A DNA stretch of 64,000 bases, from contig NZ_CP107905.1 in NCBI RefSeq assembly GCF_036014015.1, forward strand, positions 62,001 to 126,000, read 5' to 3'. The notes below the pieces were generated by a model. The model was not told the DNA's origin, did no database searches, and was given only the letters and a program-made list of their open reading frames with translations. Source of the DNA: Streptomyces sp. NBC_00457 (lineage in GTDB: Bacteria; Actinomycetota; Actinomycetes; Streptomycetales; Streptomycetaceae). Position numbers and translations under genes: made by a program. Positions 697 to 52,883 of this stretch are shown here, piece by piece. Position 1 is the stretch's first letter; the number at the start of each line of letters is the position of its first letter.

Positions 697-1121
697 TGGT
701 CTCCGGCCGGCTTAAGGACTGGTGGCGCGGGCGACGATGGCGCGACGACCGCGGGGACGCATCCATCCAGATGGCGATCGTCTTCCCGTTCGTGCTGCTC
801 GCCACCATGGCGGTCATCCAGGCCTCCATGTGGTACTACGCGCGGCAGATCGCCCTGACGGCCGCCCGCGAAGGTGCCACCGCGGCCCGCTCCTACCAGG
901 CCACCCCGGCCGACGGCGCGGCCCGGGCCCGCGATGTGCTGGGCCGCGTGGCGGGGGACAGCCTGATCAACCCCGGCGTCTCCACGGCCGGCAGCACCGC
1001 CGAGCGGGTGCGGATCCAGGTGACTGGGACGGCCCAGTCGATGATCCCGGGCGTCGACGGCCTGCAGGTCAGCCAGTCGGCCTCCGGCGCCGTGGAGCGC
1101 TGGACGACCCCGGGAGAGTGA
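696..1121 (+). CDS. TadE-like pseudopilin
   Basis: The 141-aa protein has a short charged N-terminus with DDRGDASIQM, then one transmembrane helix (about residues 28-48) followed by YARQIALTAAREGATAARSY. This is the layout of TadE/TadG-like proteins: short cytoplasmic tail, helix, then a helical and beta extracytoplasmic part. TadE proteins are minor pseudopilins needed for Flp pilus assembly. The start overlaps the upstream stop by one base and the stop overlaps the next GTG, so it belongs to a tightly coupled operon. Confidence 0.7.
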   Translation: MVSGRLKDWWRGRRWRDDRGDASIQMAIVFPFVLLATMAVIQASMWYYARQIALTAAREGATAARSYQATPADGAARARDVLGRVAGDSLINPGVSTAGSTAERVRIQVTGTAQSMIPGVDGLQVSQSASGAVERWTTPGE

Positions 1122-1573
1122 ACGTCGTGCCAAGGACCCGGTGGGGGGTGGCCCAAGGGGATGCGGGCAGCGTGGCGATCGAAGCGGCCATCATCTTCCC
1201 TGCGCTGATCATGTTCGTGTGTATGGCGATCGCCGGCGGCCGCCTCATCACCTCCGGCGCGAAGATCAACGCCGCGGCCGAGGACGCCGCACGAGAGGCC
1301 TCCATTCACCGCACCGTGGCCGCCGCCCAGGACGCAGCCCATTCGGCCGCGAACGAGTCACTGACCGACCAGGGCATCAAGTGCGCCTCCAGCAGCATCA
1401 CCGTGAACACGGGCGGGCTCAACGTGCCCGTCGGGCAGGTAGGGACCGTCACCGTGACCGTGAACTGCACGGTCAATCTGTCCGACCTCCTGCTACCCGG
1501 CGTGCCCGGGGCTCGCACCTTGGAGTCCACCGCGACCTCGGTAGTGGACCAGTACCGGCAGCGGGGGAACTGA
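1118..1573 (+). CDS. TadE/TadG-like pseudopilin
   Basis: The GTG at 1118 overlaps the previous stop (GTGA) and gives a 151-aa protein. GSVAIEAAIIFPALIM is a typical TadE hydrophobic segment, with a Glu five residues after a Gly as in type IV-pilin-like signals. The rest is a small extracytoplasmic domain with two cysteines (KCASSS and VNCTVN) that might form a disulfide. Its stop overlaps the next ATG (TGATG). It is probably a minor pilin working with its neighbours. Confidence 0.7.
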   Translation: MNVVPRTRWGVAQGDAGSVAIEAAIIFPALIMFVCMAIAGGRLITSGAKINAAAEDAAREASIHRTVAAAQDAAHSAANESLTDQGIKCASSSITVNTGGLNVPVGQVGTVTVTVNCTVNLSDLLLPGVPGARTLESTATSVVDQYRQRGN

Positions 1574-2019
1574 TGATCTTGCAGCAGGTACGGGGGCGCA
1601 CCCGCATCGGGTTCGACGACCGTGGTGGGGTCACGGTGTTCGTCGCGGTGTGCGTGGTCGCGCTGATCGGCATCGTCGGCGTGGCCGTCGACGGCGGTGG
1701 CAAGATGCGCGCCACCGAACGAGCCGACTTCGTCGCGGGGGAGGCCGCCCGGGCGGGTGGGCAGGCCATCGACCCTGCCCAGGCCATCACCGGCGAGGCG
1801 ATCGTCGTCGATCCGCAGGATGCGCAGGCCGCAGCCCAGGCGTACCTGCGCTCCGTCGACGCTGCGGGCACAGTGGCCGTGTCCGCCGACGGCAAAACGC
1901 TCACCGTGACCGTCAACGGCTCGTACGACACGAAGTTCCTGCCCGTGGTCGGGGTCGGCTCGATGCCGGTGACCGGTCACGCCACGGCCACCCTCCTGCA
2001 CGGCGTCGCCGCTCCCTAA
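1573..2019 (+). CDS. TadG-like membrane-anchored protein
   Basis: The ATG at 1573 overlaps the upstream stop. The 148-aa protein has DDRGGVTVFVAVCVVALIG as its N-terminal membrane segment, like the DRG-type segments of the preceding genes. The following VDGGGKMRATERADFVAGE resembles the start of putative Flp-pilus assembly TadE/G-like domains. The rest is a short extracytoplasmic domain. It is the fourth consecutive pseudopilin-type gene and probably completes the tip or anchor set of the pilus. Confidence 0.65.
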   Translation: MILQQVRGRTRIGFDDRGGVTVFVAVCVVALIGIVGVAVDGGGKMRATERADFVAGEAARAGGQAIDPAQAITGEAIVVDPQDAQAAAQAYLRSVDAAGTVAVSADGKTLTVTVNGSYDTKFLPVVGVGSMPVTGHATATLLHGVAAP

Positions 2020-2024
2020 GGACC

Positions 2025-5000
2025 ATGATGCGCACCAGCCACTCCCCCGCCGCCCGAGGTCGCACCCTGGCCAGGGTGCTCAAGGCCGTGTGCAGCCTGC
2101 TCGTCCTGACCGGCGCGGTCGCCGGGCTGCCGCTCGTGCTGGCCTGGGCCAGTCCGGTGGTCTGGGATGCCGGCCGCGACGACCTGGCCCATCTGCTGGA
2201 CCGGCAGGACACCGGCGCAGCCTTCCTGATGCTGCTCATCGTGGTGGGGTGGATCGGCTGGGGGCAGTTCGCGTTCTGCGCGATCCGGGAGCTGGTCGCG
2301 CAGTTGCGCGGCCGGAGTTGGCACGCACCGCGGGGGCTGGGCTCCTCGCAGCGGGCCGCGGCCGCGCTGATCGGGAGCATCCTGGTCCTCCTGCCGACGA
2401 GTTCGGCCCTTGCGTCCTCCCCCGCCCAGGCCGCACCAGCCGTCAGCGCCACCCACGTCCCCGGGCAAGCCCAAGCACAAGAGACGACCGAGGCAGACAC
2501 CAGCTCCGCATCGACGGCGAGCACGCCAGCCTCCCGCACGACGTACACGGTGCGCGAGACGCGGCCAGCGGAGAGCCTGTGGGGCATCGCCGAGCGGGAG
2601 TTGGGCAACGGCGAGCGGTGGCGGGAGATCGCCGACCTGAACGAGGGCCGCCCCATGGTCGACGGCCAGGTCTTCCACGCCAACGGCTTTCTGCAGCCCG
2701 GCTGGCAGCTTCAGATGCCCTCAACCGCCACAGCCGCGGGAGGAGTTCGTACGCAGCTGGATGACAGCACCCCGGCTGCCGACGCAAGCGGGCACGCCGT
2801 CACGGTCCACTCGGGCGACTACCTGTCGAAGATCGCAGAGGAGGAGCTCGGCGACGGCAGCGAGTGGCCGAAGCTGTTCGAGGCCAGCCGGGGCAAGCCG
2901 CAGCCGCACGGCCTGCCCGCCATCTCCGACCCGGATGTCATCTACGCGGGGCAGCAGGTCATTGTGCCCGGAGCCCAGTCCGACCAGCTGGGCCAGGGCC
3001 GTGACCTGGGTGATGAGCCGGGCAGCCAGGAGACCACTCCCCCGGCCGCCCAGAAGCCCGACGACACACAGCAGCCGGGCGCGGGCACGGATCAGGCACC
3101 CGCGCCGAGCCAGAGCACCGCGCCTGCACCGCAGTCGTCGGCCCCCGACACGCCGGCCAGTCGCCCCGCCCAGCAGCCCGGGCAGGAACAGCTCTCCCCT
3201 TCCGCTCCGGCCGCCGCCGTGACGCCCGACCCCAGTGCCGCATCATCTGCCCCCGCACGGTCGGCGCCAGCTGCACCGTCCGGCACCGTGGCCTCCTCCC
3301 CCGCCACCACGGCGTCCGAGACCCCAGCATCGGCTCCGGCCAACAGCCACCTGAACCTGCGCACCGTGCTCGGCGCCAGCGCACTGCTGGCCGCCGCCGT
3401 CACCGGTGCCCTCGCCCTGCGCCGGACACTGCAGCGCCGCCGCCGCAAGCCCGGCGAGACGATCGCCATCGCCTCGGAAACGTCCACGGCAGAGGCGCAG
3501 TTGGCGGCGGCCGCCGAGCCGGACGGCGCAACCCGCCCGGACGCGGCGCTGCGGACCCTGGCCCACCACGCGGCCCAGCAGGAGAAGGACACCGTGTTCC
3601 TGCCGCCGTTGCGGGCGGCCCGGATCGGCGCCCGCACGGTGGAGGTGCTGCCCGAGGACCTCGCTCACGAGCCGCAGGCGCCCTTCGTCTCCGGGCAGGG
3701 CGGATGGTGGGTCCTGCCCGCCGATGCCGTGCTCCTGGACGAAGAGACCGCCCGCGAGGTGCCCGCGCCGTATCCCGGGCTGGTCACGATCGGCCGCACC
3801 GCGGCGGATGACCTCCTGCTGCTCAACCTCGCGCAACTTCCCGCACTGCTGCTGGACGGCAACCCGCTTCACATCACCGAGGTGTGCACCTCGCTCGCCC
3901 TGGAGCTCGCGATGAGCCCGTGGGCGGGCGACATCGAAGTCGTCACCGTCGGGTTCGGCGAGGACCTGCCGCAGTTGCTGCCCACCGCGCGGATCGCCCA
4001 CATGCGGCAGGCCGCGCACGCGCTGCGCGATCTGAGCGAACGGCTGCTGGAAGCGCACCAGATGCCCGAAACCCAGCATCAGCCGTATCTGCTGCTGTGC
4101 GCGTCCTCTCTGGACACGGACACGGCCTGGCAGTTCGCCGACGTCATCGACAAGGCGGGCACGGTCCCCGTCACGCTGATCGCCCCGGCGAGCACGGCGG
4201 CCGCGCACTTCCCCGAGGCGGAGATCCTCAACGCCTCCCTCAGCGAACCGCAAAGCCTCGACTACGCCGGCACCGACATCACGGTGCAGCGCCTGGAGCA
4301 CGCCGCCTACCTGCAGATCACCACGGCCCTGAGGGTGTCCGGACAGCCGTCCCACCCGGCCGAAGGCCCCTGGCAGGACGTCCCGGACGAGCCCGACAGC
4401 CTGCAGCAGCCCGAGCAGACCGTCCCGGAGGAGTCCACCGCGCCCGCCGCCGCTGCCACCAGTCGCGCGACGGCGTCGGCGGACCCGAGCGGCGAGGTCT
4501 TCCCGGCCTTGCTCGCCGCCACCACCGATCCGTCCGGGCTCCGCCTCCTGTCCTCCGCCGCGTCGTCGACCATGCCTGCCGACGAACCCGACGCAGTCGT
4601 CGAAGCAACAGCGCCTCCGGCCCCCGCACCCCCGGCGGCCGCGGAAGCCGCCGAGGCGGACGACCAGGAGGACTCCGCCGAAGAACCCACGGCGGCGGAG
4701 GCAGAGGAGTGCGAAGCGCACGACCTGCACGCCCCGGAGATCCGCGTGCTGGGCCCCGTCGAGGTGACGGACGTGGACAGCACCGGCCACGGCCCGCGGA
4801 TGGCGCAGCTCGCCGCGTTGCTGTTCTTCCGACCCGGGCGAAGCTCCGACGTACTGTGCGCCGACATGGACCCTCTCAGCCCCTGGACGGCGAGCACCCT
4901 CAACGCCCGGCTGCAGGGCCTGCGTCGCTCCCTGGGCAACGATCCGGCCGGCAGCCCCTACGTACCGCGCCGCAAAACCGGCGAGGACCCCTACCGGCTC

Positions 5001-45834: not shown

Positions 45835-45857
45835 CTGCGGCGGCGCTGGGCGCGCGG

Positions 45858-46301
45858 TCGACCGGGCTGGGGCCGCTTTTGGGCCCCTGCGTGCGGCCCG
45901 GACGTGGGAGGAGTCGATCACCGCCCGCGACCAGTCCAGCTGGTTCTTCGAGCGCAGCTTGTTCAGCAGTAGCTGGTGCAGTTGGTCCCAGACGCCGGCC
46001 TCGTTCCAGGCCGCCAGGCGGCGCCAGCACGTCATGCCCGAGCCGAAGCCCAGTTCCTGCGGGAGGTACTCCCACTGGATGCCGGTGTGCAGGACGAACA
46101 AGATCCCGCACAGGGCTTGACGATCGGGCACTCGAGGTCTGCCCTCGACCTGCTTCGGGGGCGGCTCGGGCAGCAACGGCTTGATGAGCGACCACAGTTC
46201 ATCCGACACGATCCAGGGTCGTGACTGACGCTTCCCCATGCCCACATCAACGAACGATCAAGCGGACAGTCACATGAACAACCCGCTTTTGTTAGAGCCA
46301 G
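45858..46301 (-). mobile_element. IS5-family fragment (left end and N-terminal transposase part)
   Basis: On the minus strand it starts with the element end CTGGCTCTAACAAAAGCGGG (46301 downward) and encodes MGMGKRQSRPWIVSDELWSL to RGPKAAPARST. It differs from the copy at 50336 by AGVWDQLHQ against AGVWGQLHQ. It stops where it joins the IS630 remnant. The 23 bp outside its end are the same as those outside the second copy. Confidence 0.8.
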
Positions 46302-46692
46302 TAAGCGCGTCTGGAGGCGCGGGCGCTCTCGTGATCTCGTTGGGCACTGAGGACGGCGCGCTGATCGGTGCATCGTCAGGACACCGCCCACGCGCACGGA
46401 CCGGCAGCCCGGCTCCGCGGCGGAGGGGGCAGGCCGAGCGGTGGTGTGCCCGCTCCCTGGCCACCGGCACGTCCGTGGCTTTGCACGCTCACCCGCCGCC
46501 TGCACGAGGGGAGTCCCGGCAGGCGCGGTAACCAATTCGGCTCCACACTGAAGGCTGTGACCGTCCCTCACGAAACGCCCCGGGACCGAAGCCGCCGGGA
46601 AGGGGGAACGTTCACTCCGACTACGCGTCTTTCCCGCAGCCTCCAGCGAGATCCGGTCCGAGAACGCGACATCCAGTCACCTGGGAGGCGCT
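46302..46692. other. Gene-free stretch between IS5 fragment and small membrane-protein gene
   Basis: The first 23 bp (46302-46324) repeat, inverted, the sequence at 50313-50335. Beyond that I see no gene with actinobacterial coding character. Confidence 0.4.
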
Positions 46693-48866: not shown

Positions 48867-50291
48867 GATCGTGTCCCGTGAAGTGGTGTAGCCGAGCCGT
48901 GGTCCGGAACGCGCGGTGTCCGCCCCGGGGCGTGCATCCGCTGACCGTGCGTGCTCCCTGAACAAGGGCAGGCCATCGCGCAAGTCTCCCTGGTGAACGG
49001 GCAGTTCAACCGGAGGAGCACGCGATGGCCTTGTCCCAGTCTGAGCTCATGCGGCTGCTTGAGTCACTACATCGGGCGGATGGAGTTGAAGCAATCAGGG
49101 TGGCGTGCGAGCGCATCCTGCAGGAGCTCATCGAGGCCGAGGCCACCGAGACAATCGGTGCGGCCCCGGGCGAGCACACGGCGACGCGCACCACTTGGCG
49201 CAACGGGCACCGTGAGCGTCTGCTGACCACGCAGGCCGGCGACCTGGACCTGAAGATCCCGAAACTGCGGACCGGGTCGTTCTTCCCCTCCCTGCTGGAA
49301 CGCCGGCGCCGGATCGACCGGGCGCTGTTTGCCGTGGTGATGGAGGCATACGTGCACGGAGTGTCGACTCGCTCGGTCGATGACCTGGTCAAGGCACTCG
49401 GCGCGGACTCCGGGATCTCCAAGTCCGAGGTCTCCCGCATCTGCGGCGAACTGGACGAGGAACTGACCGCGTTCAAGGAACGGCCGCTGGATCACACCGT
49501 CTTCCCCTACGTATTTCTGGACGCCACGTACTGCAAGGCGAGGGTGAATCACCGGATCGCCTCGCAGGCCGTGGTCATCGCCACCGGGATCTCTGCCACC
49601 GGGCACCGCGAGATCCTCGGCCTGATGGTCGGCGACAGTGAGTCGAAGCCGTTCTGGACCAAGTTCCTGCGCTCACTGCGGGCCCGTGGCCTGGAGAACG
49701 TCCAGCTGGTCATCTCCGACAGCCACAGCGGGCTGGTGGCCGCGATCCGCACCGTCTTCCTGGGTGCGGCGTGGCAACGCTGCCGGGTTCACTTCGTCCG
49801 GGACGTGTTCTCGGTGATCGAGAGGGGCTCCGGGGAGATGGTCGCCGCCACCATCCGCACCGTCTTCGCCCAGACCACCGGCGAGCAGGTCCGCACCCAG
49901 CTCAACGTGGTAGCCGACATGCTCGGACGGCAGTTCCCGCAGGTCAAGAAGATGCTGCTGGAGGCGGCGACGGACATCACGGCGTTCGCTGACTTCCCGC
50001 CGGCGCACTGGAAGAAGATCTGGTCGACCAACCCGCTGGAACGGCTGAACCGGGAGATCAAACGACGGGCCGATGTCGTCCAGGTCTTCCCCAACCCCGC
50101 AGCCCTGGACCGACTCGCCGCTGCGGTCCTGGCCGAACTCCACGACGAGTGGCAGGTCTTCGACCGCCGCTACCTCTCCGAAGCCTCCATGGCCGATCTC
50201 CTCACCACGCCGACCCCGCCCGAACCGCAGATCACGTCGCAACCGGAATCGAAACAGCTGCCGTGACTACACCACTCAGCGGGACATGACC
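48867..50291 (+). mobile_element. IS256-family insertion sequence, copy 2
   Basis: The 1425-bp element has the same ends as copy 1 (GATCGTGTCCCGTGAAGTGG and the complementary right end) and a perfect 8-bp target duplication AGCTGCCA at 48859-48866 and 50292-50299. It is in the opposite orientation to copy 1, about 31 kb away, so recombination between them would invert the intervening DNA. Confidence 0.93.
49025..50266 (+). CDS. IS256-family (Mutator-type) transposase
   Basis: The 413-aa product is identical to that of copy 1. The catalytic acidic residues lie in VFLDATYCKARVN, LVISDSHSGLVAAI and STNPLERLNREIKRR. It is intact and preceded by GGAGGAGC close to the ATG. The C-terminal tail (EPQITSQPESKQLP) runs to within 25 bp of the right IS end. 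Confidence 0.93.
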   Translation: MALSQSELMRLLESLHRADGVEAIRVACERILQELIEAEATETIGAAPGEHTATRTTWRNGHRERLLTTQAGDLDLKIPKLRTGSFFPSLLERRRRIDRALFAVVMEAYVHGVSTRSVDDLVKALGADSGISKSEVSRICGELDEELTAFKERPLDHTVFPYVFLDATYCKARVNHRIASQAVVIATGISATGHREILGLMVGDSESKPFWTKFLRSLRARGLENVQLVISDSHSGLVAAIRTVFLGAAWQRCRVHFVRDVFSVIERGSGEMVAATIRTVFAQTTGEQVRTQLNVVADMLGRQFPQVKKMLLEAATDITAFADFPPAHWKKIWSTNPLERLNREIKRRADVVQVFPNPAALDRLAAAVLAELHDEWQVFDRRYLSEASMADLLTTPTPPEPQITSQPESKQLP

Positions 50292-50391
50292 AGCTGCCAG
50301 GCGCAAGATGCCGCCCGCGCCTCCAGACGCGCTTACTGGCTCTAACAAAAGCGGGTTGTTCATGTGACTGTCCGCTTGATCGTTCGTTGAT

Positions 50392-51091
50392 GTGGGCATG
50401 GGGAAGCGTCAGTCACGACCCTGGATCGTGTCGGATGAACTGTGGTCGCTCATCAAGCCGTTGCTGCCCGAGCCGCCCCCGAAGCAGGTCGAGGGCAGAC
50501 CTCGAGTGCCCGATCGTCAAGCCCTGTGCGGGATCTTGTTCGTCCTGCACACCGGCATCCAGTGGGAGTACCTCCCGCAGGAACTGGGCTTCGGCTCGGG
50601 CATGACGTGCTGGCGCCGCCTGGCGGCCTGGAACGAGGCCGGCGTGTGGGGCCAACTGCACCAGCTACTGCTGAACAAGCTGCGCTCGAAGAACCAGCTG
50701 GACTGGTCGCGGGCGGTGATCGACTCTTCCCACGTCCGGGCCGCACGCAGGGGCCCAAAAGCGGCCCCAGCCCGGTCGACCGCGCACGCCCGGGCAGCAA
50801 ACACCACATCATCACCGACGGCCAAGGGATCCCGCTCGCGGTGTCTCTGACCGGCGGAAACCGCAACGATGTCACACAACTACTGCCCCTGTTGGACAAG
50901 ATCCCGGCAGTGGCCGGAGTCGTCGGTCGGCCGCGCAGACGGCCGGACATGCTCTTCGCCGACCGCGGCTACGACCACGACAAGTACCGACGGCTCTTGC
51001 GGCAGCGCGGCATCACGCCCGCGATCGCCGAGCGTGGCCAGCCGCACGGGACGGGACTGGGCACCTTCCGCTGGGTCGTTGAGCGGACGAT
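50392..51091 (+). pseudogene. IS5-family transposase (OrfA/OrfB with frameshift site), split by the intron
   Basis: The first frame encodes MGMGKRQSRPWIVSDELWSL to DSSHVRAARRGPK. At C-CCA-AAA (50754-50760), a canonical -1 slippery heptamer, the sense passes to the -1 frame: SGPSPVDRARPGSKHHIITD, ADRGYDHDKYRRLLRQRGI and FRWVVERT, which holds the DDE residues. The C-terminal WLHGFRRLRIRWERRDD resumes at 51797, after the intron. An OrfAB fusion by -1 frameshifting is normal for this IS group. Activity here depends on correct splicing; if the intron is inactive the gene is dead. Confidence 0.75.
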
Positions 51092-51787
51092 GTGCGCCAC
51101 GAGGCGCTCTGTTGTATTCCCGGCTCAGCCGGGAGGAACTCGGAAGGAGGTTCCTGGGCCCGATGACTTACCTGGATCCGAAAGGTGAAGGGGACAACAG
51201 CATGTCAGCAAACCAGCAACTGGGCTCAGTTGTCAGAGACGGTGTGCTGGGGAGGCCCGCGCGATATGGCGAAGACTGGATTGTTTGAAGCCCAATCTCC
51301 AGCAGATGCAAGTTCTCATCCGCCGGAAGGACAGCTGAAACCGGTGCCGCACTCTGCACGGGGTTCGATCGTGCCCTCGTGCACCTCCGGCGTGCGGAGC
51401 GATGCCCAGCGAGGACATTCAAGGAGATGAGTGGGACGCCTACGTCGCGCTAGAACGTACAGACAGAGACGAACGTGGGATCGCCTACGGGACGCGAGTC
51501 CTATGGCGACGGAGGCCCCGTAGTAGTCGCCGGAGTAACGACCGGCCGGGGAGGACGGGAAAGCCGTCCACAGGGCGAAGGGGGCCAGGTGACTCGGACA
51601 CTCAGACCCGGGAGGTATGCGAAATGCAGATCGCCGCAACGGCGTTGTGTGTCCTGCGCGAGCAGCCTGAATCGCTCACGCTGTCGTCACTGGAGAGCCG
51701 GATGATCGGGAAACCATCACGTCCGGTTCGGCGGGAGGCCGCGCGGAAAAGGACCTGCCACGGCAGACACCTCGCCGCGCGGCCGAC
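51092..51787 (+). mobile_element. Group II intron, apparently lacking a reverse transcriptase ORF
   Basis: The insert starts with GTGCGCC, the GUGYG 5' consensus. It contains GGGAAAGCCGTCCACAGGGC followed by GAAGGGGG, sequence typical of the region just before or around the intron ORF. It carries a textbook domain V (51695-51729) and a domain VI-like stem GGCCGCGCGG/CCGCGCGGCC (51737-51784), and ends near GAC at 51787. No frame resembles a reverse transcriptase. The 3' boundary is uncertain by a few bases: ending at 51787 joins the exons out of frame, ending at 51792 restores WxxxxxERT-x-SWLHGF but lacks the AY end. Confidence 0.75.
51695..51729 (+). ncRNA. Group II intron domain V
   Basis: GAGCCGGA pairs with TCCGGTTC (one G-T pair), TGAT with ATCA above a two-base CG bulge on the 3' side, and the tip is GG-GAAA-CC. 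The AGC catalytic triad, the 2-nt bulge and the GAAA tetraloop are all in the expected places. Confidence 0.85.
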
Positions 51788-52232
51788 CCGTCCTCCTGGC
51801 TGCACGGTTTCCGCCGCTTACGGATCCGCTGGGAACGACGCGACGACATCCACGAGGCCTTTCTCGGACTTGCCGTCTGCCTGATCACCCACCGGCACGT
51901 CCAGAGGCTTTGTTAGGGCCAGTAAGGCCTGGCATCACAACCGGGAGACCGACGATGCGTTCTGGCAAGTGCCCCAGCCCCGTGTACGAACCGGCCCTGC
52001 GGTAGGGCCAGGCAGGTACCAGACCCGCTGCTTTGAGGCTGGCCCCGGGCAGAGGGCATCACGCGAGAGGAACAACCGGCTCCGCCTGTCCGTACTATCT
52101 CAACACCAGGCACCTTGCGGCAGCAACGGCGCCCCTGCAGCGCCGCCAGCACAAACCAAGAGGATGCGGCACGGCATGAAGCCGTCCCGCAGAGCCTGTA
52201 CCACGGCCGCAAGCCGAGAAAGGGTCAACACC

Positions 52233-52883
52233 ATGTCCGAGAGCACGACCACCACCACTGAACTGACATCGCACTACATCGCCCAGGTGACCGGCGACCT
52301 TGAGCGCAACCTCAAGGAGCAGGAACGCATCGGTGCGGAAATCACCGCCCTGCAGCAGCAACTGTCCGCCCTGCAGCAGGACCACACCGTGCTGGTGAAC
52401 ATGCAACAGGCACTCGGCATCCCGGAAGCACCGGCTGAGCCCGCGGCCGCGCCCGAGAGCGCCGCAGTGCCCTCTCCCCGGAAGAAGACCGACGCCGGGC
52501 AGATTGGCAAGCCGAAAGCCAGGAGGACCACGGCCGCGCAGGGAAGCCCGACGGCCAGGAAGTCCGCCGCCAAGAAGCCCCCGGTCAAGGCTGCGGCCGC
52601 CGCGAAGACAACACAGCCCACCCTGGTGGAACTCATCCGACGCCACCTCACCGAGCAGGGCGAACCGCGCTCCGCGGTGGAAATTTCCACCGCGCTCAGC
52701 CAGGCCCATCCCGAGCGCGGAATCAAGCCCAAGGTCGTGCGCGTCACCCTCGAAGGGCTCGTGGCCAAGAGCCTGGCTCAGCGCACTAAGCAGGGCCGCT
52801 CGGTCTTCTACACCTCCCCCGAGGCACCGGAGCCGACAGCTGCGCTTCCGGCCGAGGAGCAGCCCGAAGGCGCCGACCGCTGA
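52233..52883 (+). CDS. Coiled-coil and winged-helix DNA-binding-type protein
   Basis: From the ATG at 52233 the 216-aa protein has an N-terminal coiled coil (LERNLKEQERIGAEITALQQ; QLSALQQDHTVLVNMQQALG), a basic Ala/Lys/Pro-rich linker (KPKARRTTAAQGSPTARKSA, histone-H1/AT-hook-like), and a C-terminal winged helix (LVELIRRHLTEQGEPRSAVE; KPKVVRVTLEGLVAKSLAQR). This is a common Streptomyces regulator type of unknown target. It stands alone after the IS5/intron region; the 310 bp before it hold no other gene. Confidence 0.7.
   Translation: MSESTTTTTELTSHYIAQVTGDLERNLKEQERIGAEITALQQQLSALQQDHTVLVNMQQALGIPEAPAEPAAAPESAAVPSPRKKTDAGQIGKPKARRTTAAQGSPTARKSAAKKPPVKAAAAAKTTQPTLVELIRRHLTEQGEPRSAVEISTALSQAHPERGIKPKVVRVTLEGLVAKSLAQRTKQGRSVFYTSPEAPEPTAALPAEEQPEGADR

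Follow-up and report, generated by a model that had tools for sequence, protein, structure and literature searches.

A group II intron lacking its reverse transcriptase gene in a Streptomyces IS5-family transposase gene and the dispersal of its deleted form among transposase genes

In the window analyzed here, a 64,000-nt stretch of Streptomyces sp. NBC_00457 (C1:62001-126000), an IS5-family transposase gene is split by an insert that resembles a group II intron and carries no reverse transcriptase (RT) gene. The locus raises the question of how an intron without its own protein came to lie in a transposase gene, and whether it can still leave the transcript. The original prediction, made from the sequence alone, left two choices: a maturase supplied in trans or a dead element.

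Boundaries and fold of the intron

Judged from its sequence, the insert (window bases 51092 to 51792; 701 nt) is a group II intron without an RT gene, as originally proposed: it has an Rfam match, well-formed domains V and VI, and intronless counterparts of its host (Table 1). The covariance-model search suggested for it succeeded for RF00029 (Intron_gpII), which matches 51693 to 51793 on the forward strand with 49.1 bits (gathering threshold, 40; E = 1.3e-6) and identifies domain V, but not for the group-II-D1D4 models, which were absent among the matches listed in a permissive Rfam scan of 50300 to 52300 (three, all to domain V or V-VI families). The structural details described earlier are all present. 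The 5' end at 51092 reads GTGCG, agrees with GUGYG, and is invariant across 19 aligned sequences; a GAAA loop and a bulge of 2 nt are found in domain V; and the 10-bp stem of domain VI (GGCCGCGCGG/CCGCGCGGCC) is free of mismatches. The candidate branch-site adenosine, A51786, lies unpaired at position -7 in domain VI and is invariant in 13 sequences. The window intron contains no RT frame, only a 20-codon remnant at 51624 to 51683.

The boundaries were fixed by empty sites. A query with the 5' portion of the host insertion sequence (IS) found matches in 195 of the 392 genomes searched in the genus, and the best 30 places of these were fetched. Among the 31 fetched IS relatives (the best places of a longer list), 28 are intronless; in 27 of them the exons meet as GAT|CTCC without a gap, and the sole deviating row, L069, is missing four bases at the joint. 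The idea that the 700 nt are normal IS sequence is rejected by these empty sites. Because 27 of the 28 intronless relatives among the best places fetched join at these ends, the intron is exactly 51092 to 51792. No shifted placement of the ends fits the same joint, as neither T51091 and C51792 nor G51092 and C51793 are the same base. The joint at 51792|51793 is in frame (ATC-TCC), which corrects the earlier view, based on a consensus AY end, that the exons join out of frame by one position. A spliced product would read ...WVVERT-I-SWLHGFRRL..., so the split noted between WVVERT and WLHGFRRL holds, with I and S in between. The intron ends in UC (CCCGUC) rather than AY; the ends of 12 aligned relatives are AC in 9 and UC in 3. 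AY is a consensus and nonessential; the end of the window intron is fixed by the empty sites. A second, identical copy of the intron occurs in mirror position on the 10.8-Mb contig of the window genome, which we read as the terminal inverted repeat of the contig.

Table 1. Features of the intron and its host element in the window
Feature	Position	Strand	Basis
ORF-less group II intron, 701 nt	51092..51792	+	RF00029; empty sites in 27/28 intronless relatives (best places fetched)
Domain I	51097..51478	+	Consensus fold
EBS1 ATCGTG, in hypervariable hairpin loop	51368..51373	+	Column pairing across 27 sequences
Domain II	51481..51509	+	Consensus fold
Domain III	51514..51586	+	Consensus fold
Domain IV (approximate ends), holds RT-gene remnant; GGGAGGTATGCGAAATGCAG kept	51589..51692	+	Consensus fold; comparison of copies
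Remnant of deleted RT gene MQIAATALCVLREQPESLTL, then TCG (TAG in closest copies)	51624..51686	+	Comparison with longer relatives
Domain V	51695..51729	+	RF00029; consensus fold
Domain VI, with A51786 as unpaired branch site at -7	51733..51789	+	Alignment; consensus fold
5' exon: IS5-family transposase, two offset frames, ends WVVERT-AT	50392..51091	+	PF01609 8.2e-17; NF033580
IBS1 GACGAT, final six bases of 5' exon	51086..51091	+	5/6 pairs with EBS1
3' exon (I)SWLHGFRRLRIRWERRDDIHEAFLGLAVCLITHRHVQRLC*	51793..51916	+	NF033580 1.6e-6; empty sites
IS left inverted repeat CTTACTGGCTCTAACAAAAGC, approximate IS end	50332..50352	+	Sequence comparison
IS right inverted repeat GGCTTTGTTAGGGCCAGTAAG, approximate IS end	51906..51926	+	Sequence comparison

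A total of 33 five-prime arms were collected, of which 23 entered the first intron tree, 22 the second, 27 the scan for EBS1, and 19 the fold; L106 was left out as misanchored. The 19 arms used for the fold have 155 predicted pairs, with compensatory double changes in 57, and 13 aligned domain V-VI sequences have 34 predicted pairs, with such changes in 10. A chance match to a group II intron is rejected by this covariation in the 5' arm and in domains V and VI. The window copy keeps 152 of the 155 and 32 of the 34 pairs (184 of 189 in total), and the other copies keep 148 to 154 and 32 to 34, respectively. Only five bases in the two alignments (19 and 13 sequences) are unique to the window copy, one of which breaks a pair. 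The modeled RNA fold is therefore preserved in the window copy.

The fold has six domains and an EBS1-IBS1 pairing, in which EBS1 was located by comparing alignment columns for their pairing with the final five bases of the exon. Column 51368 pairs best across 27 sequences (0.84 versus 0.63 for the next best), falls outside the best four when the scan is limited to the 14 closest sequences, and belongs to a loop that varies with the target across the 27. In the ten sequences for which this loop position was read, EBS1 and IBS1 pair at 6 of 6 positions in L010 and L085, at 5 of 6 in the window copy, L015, and L086, and at 4 of 6 in L009, L008, L105, L104, and L088. The base preceding EBS1 (G51367) can pair with C51793, the first base of the 3' exon, in the window copy, and the corresponding bases fit in 7 of 8 copies read (G-C, or C-G in L008 and L105), with L086 (T, C) as the exception. 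This delta-delta' layout is typical of IIA introns.

The 5' exon fragment of the host gene scores 90.4 bits with the IS5 model NF033580, below the cut-off of 110, and its two transposase frames are offset by one base. The split lies at 50745 to 50765, near GGGGCCCAAAAG, and could represent a programmed frameshift; ten relatives aligned with the window copy have no gap in this region. Directly upstream of the element is a 413-amino-acid open reading frame (ORF; 49025 to 50266) that looks by eye like a transposase. The branch leading to the window IS carries 16 synonymous and 4 nonsynonymous changes, compared with 13 and 10 for the IS of L015, 8 and 2 for the intronless L055, and 7 and 3 for the intronless L056. 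A second copy of the IS, truncated before the intron site (45852 to 46325 on the reverse strand; 474 nt, 99.4% identical, three mismatches), already has 10 of the 13 testable changes of the window branch. Because changes common to the truncated sibling may predate insertion, the dN/dS of the window branch says little about life with the intron, and low dN/dS as support for splicing was rejected for this reason. On the IS tree (32 rows, the window and 31 others; L085 was dropped, having no 5' exon match), four rows bear an intron: the window and L015 (ORF-less), L088 (longer), and L070. Intron presence requires four changes on this tree, three of them forced by well-supported branches, and losses are possible.

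One deletion and five host genes

The window intron corresponds to a longer element minus approximately 1.72 kb of RT gene, with the first ~13 and last ~7 RT codons left behind. The deletion junction and a base change after the start codon (ATGCAGATC) are common to at least 10 Streptomyces loci in 9 genomes: the window, L015, L011, L012, L013, L014, L009, L048, L046 (in which the junction has an extra base), and L047. Two of these, L011 and L015, belong to S. canus V4I20, and L009 is on an S. chartreusis plasmid. Neither the junction nor the base change occurs in 14 relatives of RT-bearing length, and separate RT loss at each site is rejected by the same junction and shared base change at all 10 loci. 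In a 22-row tree built without the deletion region, seven ORF-less copies form one clade (support, 98/95), with L011, L014, and L048 represented by partial sequences that fill 27 to 44% of columns.

Most copies are damaged. Complete and uninterrupted full-length introns occur at 2 of the 10 loci, the window and L015. Other introns split L009 within domain V (after base 636) and L013 after base 18; L046 lacks everything before intron base 379 and has breaks near 489 and at 636; L011, L014, and L048 are 5' truncated; L012 runs off its contig; and L047 is a fragment. The ORF-less pattern had no exact match in viral contigs.

A readable 3' exon is present at 8 of the 10 loci (not at L046 and L047), and these exons belong to five host genes: the window IS (window, L015, and L012), L013, L009, L014, and L011 together with L048. 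Between the five hosts, at most 20 of 38 3' exon residues agree, versus 36 between L011 and L048. NCBIfam named three of the six 3' exons tried as IS5 (window, L013, and L009), and Pfam gave no match for six 3' exons of 40 to 55 residues. The 3' exons of L011, L014, and L048 were typed by likeness to that of L087 (21/36, 31/36, and 23/36 residues, respectively), which is an IS5 host because its 5' exon is typed as IS5. Over the 344 nt that they share, the two S. canus copies do not differ at all, yet they lie in different transposases. As the same deletion is found in five IS5-type transposases and in this identical pair, the deleted form moved to new sites after RT loss; on this sequence evidence, the shortened form was probably moved by something else.

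The RT-bearing family and the supply of RT

Matches to the intron were found in 60 plasmid records and in 97 of 392 genomes of the genus, with two candidates scored per genome, part of the matches listed, and a pattern scan that needed exact matches; because of these limits of the genus scan, fetching, and exact matching, copy counts are lower bounds. The relative in Streptomyces sp. NBC_01243 (L008) is 2,424 nt long, is 91.8% identical to the window intron over the first 570 nt, and encodes a 593-amino-acid RT with RVT_1, Intron_maturas2, and AI2M-like HNH domains. This RT has LtrA as its best solved-structure match (PDB 5g2x, 1.6e-117), which it resembles over residues 23 to 582 of 593, and scores 261 bits with TIGR04416, below the cut-off of 300. 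It is thus an LtrA-like RT/maturase of the kind found in group IIA introns of the LtrA-type (ML) lineage, and the parent family as a whole is probably of class IIA with an LtrA-like RT.

Longer relatives, of about 2.42 kb, occupy the same codon position in IS5, IS481, IS701, and ISL3 transposases. At 12 of the 16 family loci read, the upstream frame ends with a V-E-R-like motif (VERT, VERS, VERF, VERC, VERL, IERT, IEEC, VADRW, or VGDRW), and at these 12 loci the intron interrupts the third codon downstream of the E (or D), between its second and third bases; L093, L094, L100, and L102 have no such motif upstream. We take the E of the motif to be the catalytic glutamate of the transposase. All ten upstream exons searched with Pfam gave transposase matches. 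NCBIfam typed seven upstream exons as IS5 (window, L013, L087, and L098, only L087 above the cut-off), IS481 (L092), IS701 (L101), and ISL3 (L097), the last three all above their cut-offs. L092 and L101 are of RT-bearing length, and RT presence there was judged by that length; for ISL3, two plasmid records have an annotated ISL3 transposase and an RT under the match. A longer intron, L088 (gap, 2419), is also present in the IS subfamily of the window.

The search of the window genome for a related RT, which the original prediction had called for, recovered relics but no intact cognate RT on its one contig. Pseudogene fragments from the C terminus of the family's RT lie at C1:533677-534002, and the one RVT_1 match is partial and of another class (C1:10206024-10206665; a 341-amino-acid frame with a YCDD motif and a GIIM domain). 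Among the eight other records (one plasmid only), full-length RT frames with 64 to 69% identity are present in G393, G394, and the S. chartreusis (W01) plasmid; G237 has an RT split over two frames (61% and 40%); and G040, G326, G392, and G395 have no cognate RT, only other RTs at 32 to 41% over at most ~220 residues or short pieces. Overall, 5 of the 9 records searched, including the window genome, are without a close RT.

Competing readings and known systems

The account that we favor, at a probability of roughly three in four, is a nonautonomous group II intron that lost its RT in one deletion and then spread into IS5-type transposase genes by means of a relative's RT acting in trans. The progenitor would be a longer RT-bearing Streptomyces intron whose insertion point in transposase genes lies directly behind the V-E-R codons. 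A single deletion would have removed most of its RT gene and left a 0.7-kb ribozyme with its domains, EBS1 loop, and initial part of domain IV. A coresident relative would then, most likely, have supplied the RT/maturase that carried this ribozyme into additional IS5-type transposase genes, with retrohoming in trans as the putative route, and the window copy is placed such that splicing, if it still occurs, would restore the transposase frame. Counting against mobilization in trans are the five genomes in which no intact cognate RT was found (the window genome, G040, G326, G392, and G395), the two complete loci out of ten, the 5 of 6 EBS1-IBS1 pairs in the window copy and 4 of 6 in five loci, an EBS1 column that is not the best in the 14 closest sequences, and the L084-like 3' arm of L012, which points to possible recombination between introns.

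A bolder extension, which we hold tentatively and at a little under even odds, is that this is a cross-species, SINE-like intron: an RT-less ribozyme lineage spread across Streptomyces transposase genes that would use RTs met in passing and persist, possibly by self-splicing, where no cognate RT is at hand. If so, the parental family, by targeting V-E-R-like codons in IS5, IS481, IS701, and ISL3 elements, has a vast pool of mobile hosts open to it.

Arrival in trans is also compatible with a window copy that now neither splices nor moves, so that the transposase is simply disrupted. We regard such a dead relic as possible but doubtful. The truncation or interruption of 8 of the 10 loci, the mutated stop codon of the remnant, the lack of an RT found in the window genome, and the one EBS1 mismatch are all in keeping with it, but the window copy has no visible decay by the counts of unique bases and kept pairs given above; a recent arrival would look alike. 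The choice originally offered between a maturase in trans and death was partly sound: no intact cognate RT was found in the genome, but the fold is preserved and the RT-deleted form, present in five IS5-type hosts, was mobile after RT loss.

Unlikely, in our judgment, is an intron stranded but self-sufficient, splicing without any intron-encoded protein or with a host factor. LtrA-type introns normally require their own maturase in vivo, and a plasmid missing from the assembly could carry an RT. What speaks for it is an intact fold in a one-contig genome with no intact cognate RT found, together with the precedent of C.te.I1 of Clostridium tetani, likewise ORF-less and with no related protein gene in its genome (PMC3919590; PMC4424553). 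C.te.I1 lies in a surface-layer gene and splices in tests (PMC3919590); the window intron, a candidate for splicing, has close RT-bearing relatives in other species.

Conversion of longer introns already in place by the deleted form, through homologous recombination and with no retrohoming, appears improbable as a general explanation. Several types of 3' arm occur among the ORF-less copies, as this reading would predict: that of L013 equals the longer L087 (100/100 bases), and that of L012 resembles L084 (98.1% over 103 bases). Against it stand the single clade recovered over the joined arms and the identity of the S. canus copies in different hosts. Recombination between introns may nonetheless have moved some copies, because L012 (66 + 103 bases) is unplaced within the ORF-less clade (AU p, 0.18) and has the L084-like 3' arm. 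Loss of the RT within the window's own IS, with an immobile intron afterward, would suit the longer L088 in the same IS subfamily but is almost certainly wrong, being contradicted by the shared junction and base change in five host genes.

Ll.LtrB has the same EBS1-IBS1 and delta-delta' layout as the window intron. RmInt1 and others are likewise group II introns nested in ISs, and RmInt1 carries its RT. The family described here differs from Ll.LtrB in its targets, and the window copy lacks an RT. A closer parallel is TeI3 of Thermosynechococcus elongatus, for which PMC2882425 describes one deletion that removed the ORF from domain IV except for its ends, proliferation of the deleted form, and twintrons. 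Unlike TeI3, whose copies and driver proteins share one genome, the Streptomyces form is spread thinly over species and is mostly damaged, has no close RT in 5 of the 9 records searched (no intact driver RT was found in the window genome), and has an LtrA-like parent and transposase-gene targets. The ORF-less lineage is thus of the T. elongatus kind by its history, in another intron class, and is spread across species. A 2015 review describes bacterial ORF-less group II introns as rare and introns without their protein as having lost mobility, and names C.te.I1 as the only case whose genome holds no related protein gene (PMC4424553). A genome survey that counted ORF-less introns used a pipeline that misses the outer introns of twintrons (PMC8919778), and among the open-license papers listed for such introns in Streptomyces, Rhodococcus, actinobacteria, or ISs, no title or abstract opening describes this family. 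The lineage documents dispersal across species and host genes after RT loss, and copies where no cognate RT was found, and so offers a natural test of an intron ribozyme apart from its protein, a step proposed toward spliceosomal introns; in its parental family, an intron tracks a conserved protein motif across IS families that are unrelated to one another.

Introns nested in introns recur in this material. On the S. chartreusis plasmid, an RT-bearing intron (L009, 4636 to 7056) lies within domain V of the ORF-less intron, forming a twintron, and in Streptomyces sp. F001 a different RT-bearing intron (L013, about 946 to 3087) follows base 18. An intron-like insert is found at about base 489 in both L046 (ORF-less) and L053 (longer). 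A further candidate on pROB01 of Rhodococcus opacus B4 (L010, 3001 to 4434) was rejected as an eleventh copy, since its RT deletion is independent and has different ends; domain VI of this intron was later split by other DNA.
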